From NCBI GenBank assembly GCA_913043025.1, contig CAJWLM010000007.1:1-64000 (forward strand): a DNA stretch of 64,000 bases. Reading direction: 5' to 3'. The position numbers and the translations under genes were made by a program. The first letter of the stretch is position 1; every line of letters starts with the position of its first letter. Positions 13,536 to 21,009 of this stretch are shown here, piece by piece. This stretch comes from an uncultured Rhodospirillaceae bacterium (GTDB lineage: Bacteria > Pseudomonadota > Alphaproteobacteria > UBA8366). The notes under the pieces are model-generated. The model searched no databases. It saw only the letters and a list, made by a program, of their open reading frames with translations, and was not told where the DNA came from.

Positions 13536-14144
13536 ATGAGGTTGCCTGCTCCGGAAACTCTGCTGCTATTTCCAACGGTTCTCCATGTTACTCGTTATCG
13601 TGAAGAGCAAGATCTTAATTTTGCGCTCAAAAACACAATCGATTCTCTTCGCCGTACAACCCTAGGCACACCACCTGTTGAATTTGGTTGCACCATGTTT
13701 TCCACTATGGTTACCGAGTCGAGCTTACATAAAAGAGATGATCTTTCGGATTTGGTGAAGTTTGTTCTAAATGAGGTTTCGAGTTTTGCAGATGTTATGG
13801 ACTATGACGCACCGAATGTTGCCATATCCAAATGCTGGCTCAATATATTAGGGCCCGGGGATTCATGTGATCTACATAACGACATTAATGGCTGTGTAAG
13901 TGGGGTTTACTTCGTCAACAGTAAGGCAACTGAGGGTGCGCGCCTGCAGATACATGCCCCATTAGGAAATGAGATGATTGTAATAAAAAAATCCAAGGTG
14001 AGTGATCTTAATGTGACGGAAATTTTCTTCGATGGCGAGCCTGGGGACCTGCTTTTATTTCCAAGCCACTTGATGCGAAGCTGGACTTTGAATAAAAGTA
14101 TTAGAGAACAACAAATGTTTTTATTCACTGCCACCATCTCGTAG
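13536..14144 (+). CDS. Putative 2OG-Fe(II) oxygenase, TIGR02466-like, copy 2 (diverged)
   Basis: A 202-residue paralogue of the preceding gene, with the same fold order: LLFPTVLHVTRY at the start, then CWLNILGPGDSCDLHNDING, CVSGVYFVN, RLQIHAP, and GDLLLFPSHLMRSWTLN near the end. Here the near motif is a classic HxD (HND), unlike copy 1. The position that should hold the distal histidine reads arginine (LMRSW), although a histidine lies three residues earlier. The active site may therefore be altered. It is 6 bases after copy 1, so the two are co-transcribed and could act as a heteromer. It is followed by a terminator-like hairpin. Confidence 0.65.
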   Translation: MRLPAPETLLLFPTVLHVTRYREEQDLNFALKNTIDSLRRTTLGTPPVEFGCTMFSTMVTESSLHKRDDLSDLVKFVLNEVSSFADVMDYDAPNVAISKCWLNILGPGDSCDLHNDINGCVSGVYFVNSKATEGARLQIHAPLGNEMIVIKKSKVSDLNVTEIFFDGEPGDLLLFPSHLMRSWTLNKSIREQQMFLFTATIS

Positions 14145-14160
14145 GTCAAAAAAGATGAAG

Positions 14161-14186
14161 GTGTTATTAAAATAGCACTTTTCTTT
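14161..14186 (+). terminator. Rho-independent terminator candidate after the oxygenase pair
   Basis: GTGTTATT pairs with AATAGCAC around an AA loop (8 bp, one G-U), directly followed by TTTTCTTT. It lies 17 bases after the stop of the second oxygenase gene and fits as that transcript's end. The stem is AT-rich, so its strength is uncertain. Confidence 0.5.
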
Positions 14187-14306
14187 AAGGTGATGAGTGT
14201 TATTCGCACCAATCGCAACTTTATTCTAGCGTGTATGCGGGGGATGAAGCCCTGGGGAAGTTTGCTGCTCACTCAAAGTAACAGTGCGGCCGGATGATTA
14301 CAGTGT

Positions 14307-15851
14307 CTAAAAGACAACCTCCACTAACGAAGGTCCATCCACGTCTATTGCATGTTCAAAAGCCTGACATAGGTCATGAGAATCCTCTACCCTTGTGGCC
14401 TCTACACCTAAACTTTTGGCAAACCCAACCCAGTCGATGACCGGCCGATTAAGGCTCAGCATATCAGTAGCAGTAGGGCCTGGTGTGCCGGCGCCAACAC
14501 CGGCAAGTTCACCGACCAGGATATTGTAAGAGCGGTTGGCAAAAATCAGAGTTGTTATATCCAGTCCTTCCCGTGCCTGGGTCCATAGGGCTTGAGGGCA
14601 GTACATGCCGCTTCCGTCGCTTTCAAGGCAAATCACCTTTCGATCAGGGCAAGCAACTGCGGCGCCAATGGCCATAGGCAAACCTAATCCAATTGAACCG
14701 CCACAATTTTGAAGCCAGTCATGCGGGTGTGCTCCGGAGGTGTAAGGGAAAAAATTTCGGCCTGTAGTGATACTTTCATCGACGACAATAGCATTTTCAG
14801 GCAGTAGTGCACCTATTGTAGCAGCAATGGTGTCAATGGTTATTGGGCCCTGTGGCTTTTGTGGCTTATCAAGACATTGTAATTCTGGTTGTACATGATT
14901 GGCATCCAGTGCATCGGCAAGTGCCTCGAGTGCTACCAAACAATCTTGCTCAGGGGACGCTAAAGTTTTTATATGGCAGCCTTTAGGGGTTAGTTGGCTA
15001 GGTAAGTGGGGATAGGCGAAGAAGCCGACAGGTTCAGAGGCTCCCACGAGCAGTACTTGCCGAAAATTGCTCAGCATTTCGAGCGCCTGGGGTACTGGAT
15101 ATGGGATGCGATCTACTGACAATCGACCAGCTCCTCGTTGTATCCTTGCATTCATGCCTTCGGCCATAACGCTTACCCCAGTCTTTGCTTTTATTTTTGC
15201 AACTGTTTGTAGCGGGGCCTCTTTCAATGCATCGGCTCCAAGCAGGATAAGTGTACTATTATCCTCACCGATGAATCTTGCAGCATTCTCTATTACGACA
15301 TCGCCTACCTGTTCTGGTGCAGAAATTTTGGGGAGTATGCCAACGACGCCATCTTCATTCCAAGCGGTGTCAGCCGGTAAAATCAAAGTGGCAACTTGCC
15401 CGGGCGGCGTGCCCGCGGCTGCAATTGCTTCAGCGCCGTATTGTCCGACGGTTCTGGATGTGGTTGCAGCCTTAACCCAAGCTGATACCGGTTTAGCCAA
15501 TCCTATAATATCAGAAGTAAGAGGTGCATTATGCTTGAGGTGATGTATTGCGTGATCGCCTACTATGTTCACAACTGAGGAACGGGCTTTTTTCGCATTA
15601 TGAAGGTTTGCAATTCCATTGGCGAGACCAGGCCCAAGATGAAGCAACGTAGCTGCTGGTTTTTCAGCCATGCGCGCATATCCGTCAGCGGCACCCGTAG
15701 CAACGCCCTCAAAGAGGCATAAAACGCATCGCATACCTTCTATTTTATCAAGCGCAGCCACGTAATGCATTTCGGAAGTGCCGGGATTGGCGAAAGACAC
15801 ATTGACACCACCGCGCAACAATGTTGAGACGAGACTCTCGGCTCCATTCAT
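14307..15851 (-). CDS. ThDP-dependent enzyme, acetolactate synthase large-subunit-like
   Basis: A thiamine-diphosphate enzyme of the IlvB/benzoylformate-decarboxylase group, 514 residues from the chosen start. The catalytic glutamate is in CLFEGVATGAADGYAR, followed by HLGPGLANG. The Mg-ThDP motif is ESDGSGMYCPQ to FANRSYNIL (GDG replaced by SDG). An upstream ATG at 15866 is possible, but the AGGG eight bases before 15851 favours MNGAESLV. Annotators often call this subgroup acetolactate synthase; no small subunit or other ilv gene is adjacent, so a 2-oxoacid decarboxylase or carboligase role is equally likely. It converges on the 2OG oxygenase pair. There is no obvious promoter in the 200 bases upstream. 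Confidence 0.82.
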   Translation of the reverse strand: MNGAESLVSTLLRGGVNVSFANPGTSEMHYVAALDKIEGMRCVLCLFEGVATGAADGYARMAEKPAATLLHLGPGLANGIANLHNAKKARSSVVNIVGDHAIHHLKHNAPLTSDIIGLAKPVSAWVKAATTSRTVGQYGAEAIAAAGTPPGQVATLILPADTAWNEDGVVGILPKISAPEQVGDVVIENAARFIGEDNSTLILLGADALKEAPLQTVAKIKAKTGVSVMAEGMNARIQRGAGRLSVDRIPYPVPQALEMLSNFRQVLLVGASEPVGFFAYPHLPSQLTPKGCHIKTLASPEQDCLVALEALADALDANHVQPELQCLDKPQKPQGPITIDTIAATIGALLPENAIVVDESITTGRNFFPYTSGAHPHDWLQNCGGSIGLGLPMAIGAAVACPDRKVICLESDGSGMYCPQALWTQAREGLDITTLIFANRSYNILVGELAGVGAGTPGPTATDMLSLNRPVIDWVGFAKSLGVEATRVEDSHDLCQAFEHAIDVDGPSLVEVVF

Positions 15852-16057
15852 TAGTATCACCCTCATTGGATTACAGGAAGCTGAGCTCAGAATACCTGCC
15901 CCAAATTGCGTTGTTTTGGCAAGACAAAACCGCTATTGGCACGAGTTCTTAAACTGCATGCCATAAGAGCAGTTGGTGCTAGAAATAACTTTCTTGCGCT
16001 GTAGAAAATGTGATCCGATATGATTTAAAGAATTACCGTTTTGGGAAAACACCGCCA

Positions 16058-16193
16058 TCATTTCTTAACCTTTTTACAGCGATGAGAGCAGTTTTCTAAC
16101 ATTTTCTCAACAGTACCGCCACTTTTTTCGCCACGAAAACAGTTTTCTGCACGACATGCATCGCCTTTGCGGCAGACAACTTTTTTTGTGCAC
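16058..16193 (-). pseudogene. DUF2256 zinc-ribbon-like protein, single-base frameshift
   Basis: From a GTG at 16193 the frame reads VHKKSCLPQRRC, MSCRKLFSWRKKW, which is the DUF2256 signature (HKK, LP, CxxC, F-WRKKW). It then hits a stop after RYC. Skipping one base near 16118 restores the family's tail: nine residues after KKW comes NCSHRCKKVKK and a stop, giving the second CxxxC pair at exactly the expected spacing (44 residues in total). This is either a true frameshift mutation or a sequencing error beside an A6 run. DUF2256 genes are often neighbours of photolyase/cryptochrome genes, and a photolyase lies 3.2 kb away here. Confidence 0.75.
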
Positions 16194-16311
16194 TTTTATC
16201 TTAATCCCACACAATGTGCCCGTGGAGCGAATTTCCGATCATTTTTATCTGATGCGCTACGGTCGAGTAAGGAGGCTGCTCCACTATCCACATGAGCAAG
16301 GAGTGTTCTGA

Positions 16312-16482
16312 TCAGTATCGGGGATGTTCAACGATAAGAAGATCGGCAACTACGCTCTCAAGAGCGATAACTGCATCATTAATTTCGCCGCCGACTTTGT
16401 CATTCCTCGACACGTGCCTTAAATGGTCGGCAATTATTTGGAGAGAAGCAGCTGAGGTTGTTATAACTCTGTTTTTAGGCAT
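16312..16482 (-). CDS. Small protein of 56 residues, unknown function
   Basis: ATG at 16482 is preceded by a Shine-Dalgarno GAGGA with 8-base spacing. The product starts MPKNRVITTSAASLQIIADH and ends LLIVEHPRY. It reads as one or two amphipathic helices, with a mixed charge pattern and no cysteine, no membrane segment and no signal peptide. It lies 58 bases after another small gene on the same strand. I do not recognise a family. A forward-strand frame covering 16292-16672 has poor composition and is its shadow. Ribosome-site quality and normal amino-acid composition are the evidence that this is a gene. Confidence 0.6.
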   Translation of the reverse strand: MPKNRVITTSAASLQIIADHLRHVSRNDKVGGEINDAVIALESVVADLLIVEHPRY

Positions 16483-16540
16483 TTGGTTAATCCTCTTTTT
16501 CTACGTGTTAAAAACAATCTGGTTCACTTTTGAGAACAGT

Positions 16541-16699
16541 TTACGGATGATGGTGCTCTATAAAACGCTCTATTTTCTGCATGACCCACCGATGTCTTTT
16601 CTCTGCTTCATGATCACCACGTTTTTGAGCCATTCCTGCTTCCCAATTAACGGAAGAGTAAAACCCTATTAATTCATCCTCAGACATTTTACGCCCCAT
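16541..16699 (-). CDS. Small protein of 52 residues, unknown function
   Basis: ATG at 16699 has a strong Shine-Dalgarno GGAGG 8 bases upstream. The product begins MGRKMSEDELIGFYSSVNWE and ends FIEHHHP. It is charged and helical, rich in E, K, R and H, with AEKRHRWVMQKIERFIEHH near the end, and is likely cytosolic. It is first of two small genes in tandem on the minus strand that point at the frameshifted DUF2256 gene. No family is recognised. The histidine-rich end could bind metal, but that is a guess. Confidence 0.6.
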   Translation of the reverse strand: MGRKMSEDELIGFYSSVNWEAGMAQKRGDHEAEKRHRWVMQKIERFIEHHHP

Positions 16700-17307
16700 C
16701 TATCGTGCCTCCAAAAATTGCTAGCTACGGCTTGTACAACCAGCAATACAATTGCCATGTCATCGTTATGTTTTCTAAATGGCCGACAGTTGAACCACTG
16801 CTGAGCACTTAGACGTTATCAGGCTTGTGAAACTAAATCCGAGCACAAAAAACAATTAAGTAATCAACGACCCGCTATAGTATTGCCAAGCCACTATCAA
16901 CTATTACTGTAACGTCCCATATAAGCATTCAGATCACTCACCCCAATTAGCTTGGGTAATTTTATCGCAAAAAGGTGATACCAAAGAGATGCATTTTTGT
17001 ACAAAGGTACGAATGTAACGTATGCGTGTTGCTTGGGCGGATGGGGCCGACTGAGTTGATATTGAGTCCATCGAAACGCAAATGCACAGTCTCTTTGACA
17101 CTGGGAGAACGTGATGAATAACAATCTACCAATTCATCATTTGTGCAATAGATTCATTGCACCTTCAAATTATTGCAAATGATTTTTGTGAATATGACCA
17201 TATGATGAGGTAAAAGTTCAAAAAGGTTAGTTTGAGGTTTGGGTGTTTAGACGATTATCTGCTACACCCCTGAGAGCTTATTAGATAATTATGAGCACAT
17301 CGAAAAA
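16700..17307. other. Intergenic region, no confident gene
   Basis: About 600 bases without a supported gene. A minus-strand frame (16897-17124) with only a TTG start and no ribosome site was not accepted. The stretch contains the overlapping inverted repeats at 17137-17182, described separately. The A/T-rich sequence before 17308 may hold the promoter of the next rightward genes, but no clear -35/-10 pair was seen. Confidence 0.5.
17137..17182. repeat. Overlapping inverted repeats, possible alternative hairpins
   Basis: TCATTTG-TG-CAATA (17137-17150) can pair with TATTGCAAATGA (17171-17182), 12 bp with a two-base bulge, and the right arm runs into TTTTTG. Alternatively GTGCAAT (17143-17149) pairs perfectly with ATTGCAC (17156-17162). 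The two structures exclude each other. It lies 126 bases before the gene at 17308 and could be a terminator, attenuator or protein-binding site. Confidence 0.4.
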
Positions 17308-17661
17308 ATGTCGCGACTTAATCAGATCCATGCTTTGAATAGGCGGCTTTTGCGCGCGCGATTTATACCAGAGACATTACTTGCCGTCATGGGAGAGGAT
17401 GACTGGTCTAGCGCCCCCATCTCCAATTCAGCAAAACTTAGAAGCCAAAACGGCACCTCTATTTACATCGATGTTCCAATTAGTTGGCTAGAATTACTTA
17501 TAAAAATTGATGATCAACTCATTCGAGCCGGCACCAAGTTCAAGACTGATATTATTTCAATCTCAATAAATAAGAATATTATACAATATGAAATCGGAGC
17601 AATTTCGCCGCGGCATATGGATATAACGCCACCTCATCTGGCGGTGAATGATACTACGTAA
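17308..17661 (+). CDS. Hypothetical protein, 117 residues
   Basis: I do not recognise this protein. It begins MSRLNQIHALNRRLLRARFI, has a central IDVPISWLELLIKIDDQLIR helix and a beta-rich tail. There is no signal peptide, membrane segment or cysteine, and the composition looks like a soluble folded protein. The ribosome site is weak (A-rich). It is followed after 21 bases by the DUF3429 gene in the same direction, so it may be the first gene of the rightward stress/photolyase cluster. Confidence 0.5.
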   Translation: MSRLNQIHALNRRLLRARFIPETLLAVMGEDDWSSAPISNSAKLRSQNGTSIYIDVPISWLELLIKIDDQLIRAGTKFKTDIISISINKNIIQYEIGAISPRHMDITPPHLAVNDTT

Positions 17662-17682
17662 GGTGAACCATGGGCCGTGGTA

Positions 17683-18147
17683 ATGGTTGAAAAGAAATCA
17701 CAGGTAACTGCTGGTAAATTAATATATGTGCTCGGCATCGCTGGGCTGGTGCCATTCTGTTTGTTAGGACTTTTCCCAAATTTTTTAAAACCGTTATTTG
17801 AACCTTTATCGGGCTTAGTAGTTTACGGAGCTCTGATTCTGTCGTTCCTTGGTGGCGCCGTTTGGGGGTTATCGCTTAACTCAGTCGACACATTCCCACG
17901 AAAATACATTTTTCTTATCGTTGCAGTATTGCCGTCTCTTTTCGGTTGGGTATGTGTGTTTTTACCCACAAGATATGGGATTTTTGCTTTGATTTGTTTT
18001 TTCGCGGTGATGCTAGCAATCGACTACGGCCTTTATCGCGCGGGTCAAATTGAGAGCTGGTATATGAAATTCCGCTTGTACCTGACGATTTCTGTTATTT
18101 TCATTCTTGCAACCGCTATTTTTGTTTGGTCTGATCTATATCTATGA
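17683..18147 (+). CDS. DUF3429 membrane protein
   Basis: A 154-residue inner-membrane protein with about five predicted membrane helices: LIYVLGIAGLVPFCLLGLF, VVYGALILSFLGGAVWGLSL, IFLIVAVLPSLFGWVCVFL, IFALICFFAVMLAIDYGLY and YLTISVIFILATAIFVW. The spacing and the SFLGGAVWG motif match DUF3429, whose function is not known. A GTG at 17677 in the same frame is an alternative start. DUF3429 genes often lie near photolyase, lipocalin and DCC-family genes, as here, which suggests a role in the same light or oxidative-stress response (inference). Confidence 0.78.
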   Translation: MVEKKSQVTAGKLIYVLGIAGLVPFCLLGLFPNFLKPLFEPLSGLVVYGALILSFLGGAVWGLSLNSVDTFPRKYIFLIVAVLPSLFGWVCVFLPTRYGIFALICFFAVMLAIDYGLYRAGQIESWYMKFRLYLTISVIFILATAIFVWSDLYL

Positions 18148-18184
18148 CCAAATTTTTTCATAACAATTGCGAGCCGGTAGTTTT

Positions 18185-18763
18185 ATGAATAATGATGCAC
18201 TATCGAAATCACTGCGTTACCTTTTTAGTTTTTTGCTGGTGACTCTTTTGGGAGGATGTAATCAGATCCCTGACGGTTTAGAGGCCGTCACATCCTTTGA
18301 CGTTCAGCGCTACAAAGGTCGATGGTTCGAAATTATGCGCCTTGACAACAGTTTTGAGCGCGGTCTCAGTCACGTGACAGCAACGTATGATTTGCGTGAC
18401 GATGGGACAGTAAGTGTTTTAAACCGTGGTTTTAATGGTGCTAATTGTGAGTGGGAGGAAGCCAAGGGAGTCGCCGTTTTTCAGCAAAGAAAAACCGTTG
18501 GTAGTCTTTCGGTATCTTTCTTTTGGCCTTTTAGTGGTGGCTATCACGTTATTGGTCTTGATCGTAAAAACTACCACTTTGCCCTTGTTTCTGGGCCATC
18601 CCGAGAGTATCTGTGGATCCTTTCTAGGGAACCAGTTTTGGCAGCGGACGTAAGACAGAAGCTTATTGAGGAAGCTCGGAAACTCGGGTTCCCTGTCAGT
18701 GAGTTGGTCATGGTGAAACATGGTGACCGACATTGTAGAAGCCTCTCAGGGCCCCGGTCTTAA
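18185..18763 (+). CDS. blc: Outer-membrane lipocalin (Blc-like)
   Basis: A 192-residue bacterial lipocalin. An N-terminal lipoprotein signal with lipobox LLGGC (residues about 18-22) points to export and lipidation. The lipocalin GxW signature is in YKGRWFEIMRLDNSFERG, followed by VTATYDLRDDGTVSVLNRGF and a late GPSREYLWILSREP, as in Blc. The ATG at 18185 is preferred over an upstream TTG because it starts the signal peptide directly. Blc binds lipids such as lysophospholipids at the outer membrane and is stress-induced in enterics. It sits 37 bases after the DUF3429 gene and before the DCC gene in the same direction. Confidence 0.88.
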   Translation: MNNDALSKSLRYLFSFLLVTLLGGCNQIPDGLEAVTSFDVQRYKGRWFEIMRLDNSFERGLSHVTATYDLRDDGTVSVLNRGFNGANCEWEEAKGVAVFQQRKTVGSLSVSFFWPFSGGYHVIGLDRKNYHFALVSGPSREYLWILSREPVLAADVRQKLIEEARKLGFPVSELVMVKHGDRHCRSLSGPRS

Positions 18764-18881
18764 TATCTTCGATGAGTAGGTTTTCGGTCACAGTCCTTCA
18801 CGCACAGCTTGATCTACGCGGTAGATCATGACGTATCACTCATATATTGTCGATTTTGATCACTAATAGCTGGGGGAGAAA

Positions 18882-19301
18882 ATGTTAAAAACTGAGGCCG
18901 GTAAGGACCCAGCGGTTACCCTTTTTTACGACGGTGGATGTCCGATGTGTGATGCTGAGATACGGTATTATAAAAAAATAGATATAATGCAGCGTATGAA
19001 CTTCATTGACATTACTGATCAATCTGCTGTCCTGCCACCCGATTTGGATATGAAAACCGCCTTGTCCCGTTTTCACGTTCTCACTCGTGACGGAAAGCTA
19101 CTATCCGGTGTGCTAGCCTTCTCGGAAGTTTGGAAACAGATTCCGCGGTGGCGGTGGGCCGGTTACGTTGCTTCTCAGCCCGTCATCCGAGACATTTTTG
19201 AAGTGGGGTATAAGATCTTTTTAAAATGTTTTCGGCCACTCATGGCTCATTTAATTAAGGGTCTTTGCAAAGGTGTCAAATCCACAAGCACATCGTTTTG
19301 A
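18882..19301 (+). CDS. DCC-family thiol-disulfide oxidoreductase (DUF393)
   Basis: A 139-residue DUF393/DCC-family protein. The defining D-x3-C-x2-C motif is in LFYDGGCPMCDAEIRYYKK, resembling a thioredoxin-like redox site. Downstream features are the FHVLTRDGKLLSGVLAFSEVW segment and a closing LIKGLCKG. A GGGGG stretch lies before the ATG. Biochemical roles in bacteria are poorly known. It lies between the lipocalin and photolyase genes on the same strand, an arrangement common in marine proteobacteria. Confidence 0.85.
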   Translation: MLKTEAGKDPAVTLFYDGGCPMCDAEIRYYKKIDIMQRMNFIDITDQSAVLPPDLDMKTALSRFHVLTRDGKLLSGVLAFSEVWKQIPRWRWAGYVASQPVIRDIFEVGYKIFLKCFRPLMAHLIKGLCKGVKSTSTSF

Positions 19302-19378
19302 AATTGATTGTTTAATTTCCAGCAGGTACTTGTGTAAAAACAAAAATTTTCTCGAATTAGGAAAGGTTTACTCCGAAA

Positions 19379-20821
19379 ATGACCACCATACTTTGGTTCC
19401 GTCAGGATCTGAGACTGACCGACAATTCAGCTCTCGACGCCGCCATTTCTCGAGGAGGTCCAATCGTACCACTTTTCATCTTCGACCACGCAGAGGAACA
19501 TGAATGGTCGCTAGGAGGGGCCTCGCGTTGGTGGCTTCATCATTCTCTTAAAAGGCTCTCTGACGAGATAAAAGAACGCGGTAATGAACTCATTATAAAG
19601 TCAGGGGATGCAAGGTCTGTAATGGGTGAGGTCCTAAGAGAAACAGGGGCAACCTCCATCTTTTGGAACCGGTGCTACGAACCTCGGAGTATTATAAGGG
19701 ATACAAAGCTTAAACAAGCGCTTGTTAATGAAGGCATCGATGTTTGCAGCTTCAACTCGAGCTTATTACGTGAACCTTGGGAGGTCGCAACACAAAAGGG
19801 TGATCCATACAAAGTGTTTACACCTTTTTGGAGGGCATCACGAGCACTTGGCGAGCCTGCGCGCCCTTCCAGTGCGCCAGATTCTATTCCCGCTTCCGAT
19901 TGGGCTATAAAAAAGTGCAATTTAAATACATTAAAGTTGTTGCCAGACGATATTGACTGGGCTCACGGATTGCGTGAACGTTGGAACCCGGGCGAGAAAG
20001 GCGCCCTGATCCGTTTGAATGAATTTAGGGAGGCAAACGCTCATGGTTATGCGGATATGCGCAACATACCCTCATTAGCGGGAACCTCACGACTATCTCC
20101 GCATTTACATTTTGGCGAATTAGGCCCCCGACAGGTTTGGCACGCCATTACCTCCAATGCGCACATAGAAACTGATGGCATCATGTCAAAAGGTGTTGAA
20201 ACTTTCCTCTCAGAAATTGGTTGGCGGGAATTTTCATATCATCTGCTTTACTATTTCCCAGAGCTGCCTTCCGCACCACTCCGAAAAGAGTTTGAGAGGT
20301 TTCCCTGGGCTGACAGTTTGTCCTCTAAAGCAGCATGGGAATGCGGGAAGACGGGATACCCAATAGTAGATGCTGGTATGCGGGAGCTCTGGAGTACAGG
20401 GTGGATGCATAATCGTGTTCGGATGATCGTTGCATCTTTTCTGGTCAAAGATTTATTAATTGATTGGCGATGCGGTGCAAGATGGTTTTGGGATACCCTT
20501 GTTGATGCTGATCTTGCTAGCAATTCAGCAAGTTGGCAATGGGTGGCTGGCTGTGGTGCTGATGCGGCACCTTACTTTCGAATTTTTAATCCTACTACGC
20601 AGGCGAAGAGATTCGACCCCGATGGTAGTTACGTTCGGCAATGGATACCCGAGATATCGGGCCTTCCAAACAAGTTGATACACACCCCTTGGCTTGCCAA
20701 ACCTATTGAATTGTCTGATGCAGGTATTTCTATGGGCAGTAGCTACCCAAATCCCATTGTGGATCATTCAGAAGCAAGAAACCATGCTTTGGATTCTTAT
20801 AAATTCCTCAAAAGTACGTGA
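19379..20821 (+). CDS. phrB: Deoxyribodipyrimidine photolyase
   Basis: A 480-residue class I-type DNA photolyase, which repairs UV-induced cyclobutane pyrimidine dimers with blue light. The N-terminal antenna Rossmann domain starts TTILWFRQDLRLTDNSALDA. The FAD domain has FLSEIGWREFSYHLLYYFP, TGYPIVDAGMRELWSTGWMH, NRVRMIVASFLVKDLLIDW and the tryptophan-bearing ASWQWVAGCGADAAPYFRIF, ending FDPDGSYVRQWIPE. These residues surround the U-shaped FAD and the dimer pocket, and none looks missing. Length is normal (about 470-490). It is the last gene of the rightward DUF3429-lipocalin-DCC series. Confidence 0.95.
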   Translation: MTTILWFRQDLRLTDNSALDAAISRGGPIVPLFIFDHAEEHEWSLGGASRWWLHHSLKRLSDEIKERGNELIIKSGDARSVMGEVLRETGATSIFWNRCYEPRSIIRDTKLKQALVNEGIDVCSFNSSLLREPWEVATQKGDPYKVFTPFWRASRALGEPARPSSAPDSIPASDWAIKKCNLNTLKLLPDDIDWAHGLRERWNPGEKGALIRLNEFREANAHGYADMRNIPSLAGTSRLSPHLHFGELGPRQVWHAITSNAHIETDGIMSKGVETFLSEIGWREFSYHLLYYFPELPSAPLRKEFERFPWADSLSSKAAWECGKTGYPIVDAGMRELWSTGWMHNRVRMIVASFLVKDLLIDWRCGARWFWDTLVDADLASNSASWQWVAGCGADAAPYFRIFNPTTQAKRFDPDGSYVRQWIPEISGLPNKLIHTPWLAKPIELSDAGISMGSSYPNPIVDHSEARNHALDSYKFLKST

Positions 20822-21009
20822 GATAGCTAAAAATCAGGTGCTATTTTAAAAAACGAACTTCGTTCTTTGTGAAAAACCAGCTTACATGATGACAGAGGAT
20901 AATATAGTCATAAAGATGTCGATGTGATTCCTGGCGGTGAGTTGGAACTCTCTTTTTTGAATTCATTACCTTAAACCAAAAGGTGAGAGATGAATGAGGA
21001 GTTTGTCTA

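Follow-up and report, generated by a model that had tools for sequence, protein, structure and literature searches.

Two small genes under purifying selection behind a candidate ECF11-type promoter element in an uncultured Rhodospirillaceae bacterium

Introduction

The described system closest to the locus studied here is the RpoE/sigmaE-ChrR (ECF11) photo-oxidative stress regulon, for which a review describes numerous "extended" members whose function is unknown (PMC6852236). Published promoter sites include TGATCC-N16-CGTA, given as the ECF11 RpoE/ChrR-type site (PMC5507510), TGATCC-N15-GCGTA, given as an RpoE site (PMC5036791), and TGATCC combined with CGTATT or CGTAAT (PMC4336711). Small products have also been described in this setting. 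Pos19 is a translated peptide whose function is given as unknown and which the source records from Rhodobacter sphaeroides strains alone, the regulator being its RNA (PMC5036791). The DUF1127 proteins RSP_0557 and RSP_6037, of about 70 amino acids, are described in connection with alphaproteobacterial photo-oxidative stress, and RSP_0557 is assigned to RpoH regulons (PMC10673084). Here, we describe two small genes that probably belong to a regulon of the ECF11 type.

Results

Layout of the two small genes

The window, a stretch of 64,000 nt, lies on contig 7 of the draft genome G000 (3.08 Mb) of an uncultured Rhodospirillaceae bacterium. The initial annotation had pointed to tandem minus-strand ORFs of 52 and 56 residues, each with a GGAGG or GAGGA ribosome site at ideal spacing, next to a DUF2256 remnant and a photolyase. 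The coordinates and reading frames were verified, both ribosome sites were located 8 nt from the ATG, and the two neighbours were recovered as a PF10013 match and a photolyase gene. The features of the locus are as follows.

16058-16190, minus strand: broken DUF2256 gene, 3' of the 56-aa gene; PF10013 over the cut-off
16312-16482, minus strand: 56-aa small protein gene; predicted two-helix hairpin; putative homologues in genome G014
16491-16495, minus strand: GAGGA, ribosome site of the 56-aa gene, 8 nt 5' of the ATG
16541-16699, minus strand: 52-aa small protein gene; predicted two-helix hairpin; confined to the genus in the searches made
16708-16712, minus strand: GGAGG, ribosome site of the 52-aa gene, 8 nt 5' of the ATG
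16799-16900, minus strand: membrane microprotein remnant; tblastn E = 0.004, in-frame stop
16911-16936, minus strand: ECF11-type (RpoE/ChrR) candidate promoter element TGATCT-N16-CGTT, 211 nt before the ATG of the 52-aa gene
18810-18835, plus strand: second ECF11-type element; the DCC1-like gene preceding the photolyase gene starts 46 nt further on
19379-20821: photolyase gene, in the neighbourhood of the two small genes

The 52-codon and 56-codon ORFs were separated by 58 nt. For comparisons within the genus, we used the window genome and the two other same-genus genomes examined, G001 and G002. The motif GGAGGCA upstream of the 52-aa start had the same letters in all three, and the ribosome site of the 56-aa gene varied in its letters in G001 and G002 while keeping its purine-rich character.

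Coding constraint within the genus

The pair was kept in the syntenic genomes G001 and G002, where both ORFs were intact and located at the same place, with start and stop codons aligned. Each small gene was present in a single copy per genome and fixed at one place in 3 of 3 same-genus genomes. The 52-aa protein was identical in all three genomes, and the 15, 20, and 11 substitutions observed per pair were all synonymous (dN = 0). The 56-aa ORF had 25/6, 26.2/11.8, and 12/5 synonymous/nonsynonymous changes per pair and dN/dS values of 0.034, 0.06, and 0.10 for the three pairs, and its protein was 91% and 84% identical to its two relatives. When mutants were simulated with an equal number of changes, none of 20,000 was as conserved as observed in any of the four window comparisons, and about half of them gained a stop codon. 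DNA identity dropped beyond the borders of the two ORFs. The synonymous divergence between the window and G001 was 0.9 and 1.4 for the small ORFs, values that derive from few sites, versus 0.33 for an acetolactate-synthase-like neighbour.

The substitutions were located in the third positions of both minus-strand frames, which bears on whether the ORFs are spurious, or whether a plus-strand ORF of 126 aa that is open in the window is instead the real gene. The latter contained 3 and 2 stops in G001 and G002, respectively, and with the changes at minus-strand third positions we regard such a reading as barely credible. Judged from the pattern of substitutions, both ORFs are genuine small-protein genes under purifying selection, since this selection is accompanied by conserved start and stop codons and a conserved gene order. 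The proposal in the initial annotation of two unrecognised small genes, in a stretch that is commonly left empty, is thereby borne out by selection, start and stop codons, and gene order alike, and neither product matched a curated family. The opposite picture that it had sketched, of ORFs lacking homologues and changing at neutral levels, does not describe the locus: relatives exist and change is strongly constrained.

Other small ORFs nearby, at 16156-16311 (plus strand), 16897-17124 (minus strand), and 16962-17132 (minus strand), contained stops in relatives, showed no coding constraint, and were rejected. It was also noted that a 117-aa protein encoded at 17308-17661, with no Pfam or NCBIfam match, was well conserved in the genus with a dN/dS of about 0.1 to 0.2; it was not found in the sister-genus stretches.

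Database searches and homologues

The 52-aa and 56-aa proteins had no significant match in Pfam, NCBIfam, PHROGs, PADLOC, or the PDB sequences. Pfam gave nothing at E ≤ 1 for either protein, the only NCBIfam match was a glycine-tRNA ligase for the 56-aa protein (E = 0.079), the best PHROGs match to the small proteins had E = 0.24, and PADLOC gave no match. The PDB sequence search returned nothing for the 56-aa profile and E ≥ 0.2 at best for the 52-aa protein. No description of the two proteins was found among the titles and passages listed in literature searches, and a prior report may exist. Each protein was predicted by AlphaFold2 to form a two-helix hairpin, with a mean pLDDT of 85 (single sequence) for the 52-aa protein. 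For the 56-aa protein, the best model had a mean pLDDT of 79 and the remaining four had 62 to 67. Comparison with PDB folds gave none at E ≤ 0.001, and all matches were generic helical hairpins with E > 0.1.

Two small genes in tandem are also what a toxin-antitoxin or phage-defence pair would look like. However, neither protein fell into a PADLOC family, the one PHROG was found at E = 0.24, and the genes are single-copy and fixed at the same place in 3 of 3 genomes, with a dN of 0 for the 52-aa protein, all of which makes such a pair very improbable.

The 52-aa protein was matched in 3 of 59 genomes, at a convincing level in 3 of 43 genomes of the order, and in its own genome alone among the 385 genomes of the class searched; no convincing match was obtained beyond the genus in the genomes searched. 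A scan of genome contigs recovered one locus, on the G001 contig (Rhodospirillaceae MAG, PBCW01000044.1), which encoded an identical protein. Several candidates were not accepted: a match in G028 (L015) was out of frame within a luciferase-like monooxygenase ORF, matches on Shinella and Rhizobium plasmids had E values of 4 and 5, and a match in G227 was located in a 419-aa frame.

A weak match to the 56-aa protein came from G014, which belongs to the same order as the window genome but to another family, with E = 0.027 and 0.015 in the 59-genome and 43-genome searches, respectively. The match was a 59-aa ORF that could be aligned to the 56-aa protein along most of its length, and the 59-aa protein itself had a paralogue of 61 to 66 aa in G014 (E = 1.5e-7). 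The 56-aa and 59-aa proteins aligned with a score of 66 against 22.3 ± 4.3 for shuffled sequences, and 0 of 5,000 shuffles reached 66, the match so tested being one picked as the best of 59 and 43 genomes. The two G014 proteins aligned with a score of 106 (0 of 5,000 shuffles as high), and the direct similarity between the 56-aa and 61-aa proteins was weak, with 121 of 5,000 shuffles scoring as high, or 62 of 5,000 for the G002 version.

The first profile gave the G014 homologue 18.8 bits versus 19.3 bits for a 488-aa frame in G210. Because the G210 frame scored as high, the homology was not decided by sequence alone; the G210 match was rejected for its location in this long frame, although it scored no lower than the G014 protein. 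We accepted the G014 homologue because of its length, its reciprocal match with the G014 profile (20.3 bits), and its promoter context, described below. A five-sequence profile gave 5 matches in 4 of the 385 genomes (G000, G001, G002, and G014), all of them members of the profile. The remaining matches of this profile, of which the best (E = 0.005) had three internal stops, were rejected as a group for frame length or stops, and a tblastn match of the G014 protein in L070 and L104 was rejected for falling inside a short-chain dehydrogenase. A broad distribution of the family was thus not observed, its convincing members being found in 4 of 385 genomes, and the G014 homologue was present in 1 of the 11 genomes of its family. 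The 56-aa protein and the 59-aa and 61-aa proteins of G014 appear to form one family, divergent in sequence and of like size.

Operon neighbours and their decay

The gene order in G002 was the element, a membrane-type microprotein of 90 aa, the 52-aa gene, the 56-aa gene, and DUF2256. The microprotein gene, present as a remnant in the window, was split between frames in G001. In the DUF2256 gene of the window, PF10013 matched the first 26 of 40 positions and the remainder was in another frame, whereas the G002 gene contained an in-frame stop and the G001 gene was open over 43 residues and diverged, scoring 24.9 versus a cut-off of 25. The microprotein and DUF2256 genes were each broken in 2 of 3 genomes, and of the four operon members the 52-aa and 56-aa genes alone were intact in all three. 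The breakage of DUF2256 represents the loss of a usual photolyase neighbour in the genus.

In the sister genera, represented by G005 and G009, the microprotein (61% identical) was encoded behind the element, divergently from a glutathione peroxidase gene with an element of its own. A tblastn search of the stretches taken from these two genomes gave no 52-aa or 56-aa gene. The microprotein loci were L043 7428-7697, L098 4563-4856, L099 2733-3026, and L101 5397-5765 (minus strand). A microprotein with a conserved NPL..LP..RFQLM..L..MW segment and no Pfam match was thereby seen to follow ECF11-type elements in several genera of this family, and a 70-aa ORF with a similar hydrophobic segment, at L098 196-265 (minus strand), was also located behind an ECF11-type element.

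The candidate promoter element

The element TGATCT-N16-CGTT agrees with the published TGATCC-N16-CGTA at 8 of 10 positions and departs from it at 2. All 10 motif columns were identical in the three genomes, compared with 309 of 590 background columns. The second element in the window was likewise identical in 10 of 10 motif columns in three genomes. With 2 strict elements in the window against a mean of 0.51, and 8 of 100 shuffles containing at least 2, the count itself is within chance. We consider the photolyase neighbourhood meaningful because both gene groups carry an ECF11-type element.

The G014 homologues have the same context. The 59-aa gene started 32 nt behind an ECF11-type element and the 61-aa gene 30 nt behind another (or 15 nt, should translation begin at an earlier in-frame ATG). 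The two G014 promoter regions are L097 3068-3125 and L096 6266-6321. For either gene, a site within 100 nt upstream has a chance of about 3 to 4 in 10,000. This coincidence, an element ahead of both homologues, appears to us decisive for the promoter context.

In the window, the element is separated from the 52-aa gene by a poorly conserved leader of 211 nt, compared with about 30 nt in G014. Such a leader would suit a transcript that acts mainly as a regulatory RNA and carries small ORFs, for which Pos19 of Rhodobacter sphaeroides provides the precedent, described as a 219-nt RpoE-dependent RNA with a translated 150-nt ORF (PMC5036791). But the constraint was found at the codon level, synonymous change being saturated, whereas leader conservation was poor and no Rfam match was obtained in 14000-21000, so that a mainly RNA-based role seems quite improbable.

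The distance of 211 nt could also mean that the element serves neither small gene. The element adjoins the microprotein gene in G002, G005, and G009, and the flanking operon genes are in decay; the 52-aa and 56-aa genes could then be real genes of the genus with an unrelated role and another promoter, the element being a chance occurrence or a relict of the decayed microprotein gene. However, the 10 motif columns were unchanged in the window even though the microprotein gene was lost, a sigma-70 scan detected nothing in the interval from the element to the 52-aa gene, and the two homologues of the 56-aa protein elsewhere are also encoded directly behind an element. We therefore hold this explanation to be unlikely. 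No minus-strand terminator was predicted in 15850-17400.

The sigma-ChrR pair and its neighbourhood

The window genome encodes an ECF sigma factor and a ChrR-family anti-sigma factor (L102 1206-2530). The ChrR protein scored 183.1 bits against TIGR02451 (cut-off 124.5), and the sigma factor contained Pfam regions 2 and 4. Genes for an FAD-oxidoreductase, DUF1365, cyclopropane synthase, DUF3833, and DUF6134 were located near the pair. An ECF11-type element was found 8 nt before the sigma gene and another 29 nt before the FAD-oxidoreductase gene, and elements preceded the sigma, FAD-oxidoreductase, and PNPOx-like genes in G000 and G002 alike. In total, L102 contained 3 elements versus 0.13 expected, a number reached in 0 of 200 shuffles. 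The PNPOx-like gene, which is divergent from DUF6134, follows an element in this genus (L102 9552-9577 and L104 9845-9870) and also in G005 and G009.

The homologues in G014 have related neighbours. The 59-aa gene runs into a DUF6134 gene, the GTG of which overlaps the 59-aa stop codon, and the 61-aa gene is located about 2.6 kb beyond a sigma-ChrR pair. As a control, we inspected 30 DUF6134 loci, one from each of 30 genomes out of the 40 with a match. A strict element was present in 15 of the 30 and, as read from positions, was upstream of DUF6134 in 11, one of which was the G014 locus. The second DUF6134 copy of the genus (L103 and L105) had no element in front; the elements at L103 7707 and L105 3989 were not placed before DUF6134 and may be due to chance. 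The 59-aa ORF was not found upstream of the nearest DUF6134 relatives, and is therefore weaker as an operon partner of DUF6134.

Discussion

We propose, with a probability of roughly three in four, that the 52-aa and 56-aa genes constitute one minus-strand operon transcribed from the ECF11-type promoter and form part of the RpoE/sigmaE-ChrR photo-oxidative stress regulon. The two genes would then probably belong to the defence against damage by light and oxygen. Singlet oxygen or peroxide would free the sigma factor from ChrR, a behaviour for which we rely on published accounts of ChrR under these stresses (PMC6852236, PMC10673084), and the freed sigma factor would switch on the operon so that both helical-hairpin proteins are made together. 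We infer this co-expression under stress from the promoter element combined with the known behaviour of ChrR.

Since no PDB fold resembles the hairpins at E ≤ 0.001, their mode of action is a guess. Most likely, the proteins might self-associate into small helical bundles and, as non-enzymatic stress effectors or adaptors, might act on another product of the regulon. Because the G014 homologues are encoded next to DUF6134 and near a sigma-ChrR pair, such a partner could first be sought in the membrane-lipid damage branch or in the sigma switch itself. A bolder and distinctly doubtful version holds that the 56-aa family is a third component of the sigmaE-ChrR switch, a hairpin microprotein made early from an ECF11 promoter and feeding back directly on sigma/ChrR or on lipid-linked release, with the fully conserved 52-aa protein as its partner. 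If it were such a third component, the Pos19 peptide of Rhodobacter could be a functional counterpart.

The ECF11 regulon is already known; what is new here are the two small proteins as candidate members, and the putative regulatory link, the G014 homologues, and the broken flanking genes extend the initial annotation. Both small proteins have been kept by selection as their operon neighbours broke, the 52-aa protein being absolutely conserved. They offer a concrete and testable entry point to the extended regulon, and small genes behind ECF11 elements merit a systematic search.

Among described small products, the Pos19 peptide likewise has about 50 residues and comes from a transcript with an RpoE promoter ahead of it, a likeness by description that any small gene of the regulon would fit; unlike the genes described here, Pos19 has its RNA as the regulator, and the source reports it from R. 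sphaeroides only (PMC5036791). RSP_0557 and RSP_6037 are small proteins linked to photo-oxidative stress; neither window protein matches DUF1127 (Pfam, E ≤ 1). Closer at hand, the adjoining membrane microprotein is a small gene at the same operon position and behind the same element, but it differs in sequence and has a hydrophobic segment, and its gene is broken in G001 and a remnant in the window.

The overall resemblance is to the sigmaE-ChrR (ECF11) regulon of Alpha- and Gammaproteobacteria. Both small proteins differ in falling outside every curated family scanned. The promoter element, the sigma-ChrR pair in the genome, and the core-type neighbours (photolyase, FAD-oxidoreductase, DUF1365, cyclopropane synthase, DUF3833, and DUF6134), together with glutathione peroxidase in the sister genera, are shared with that regulon.
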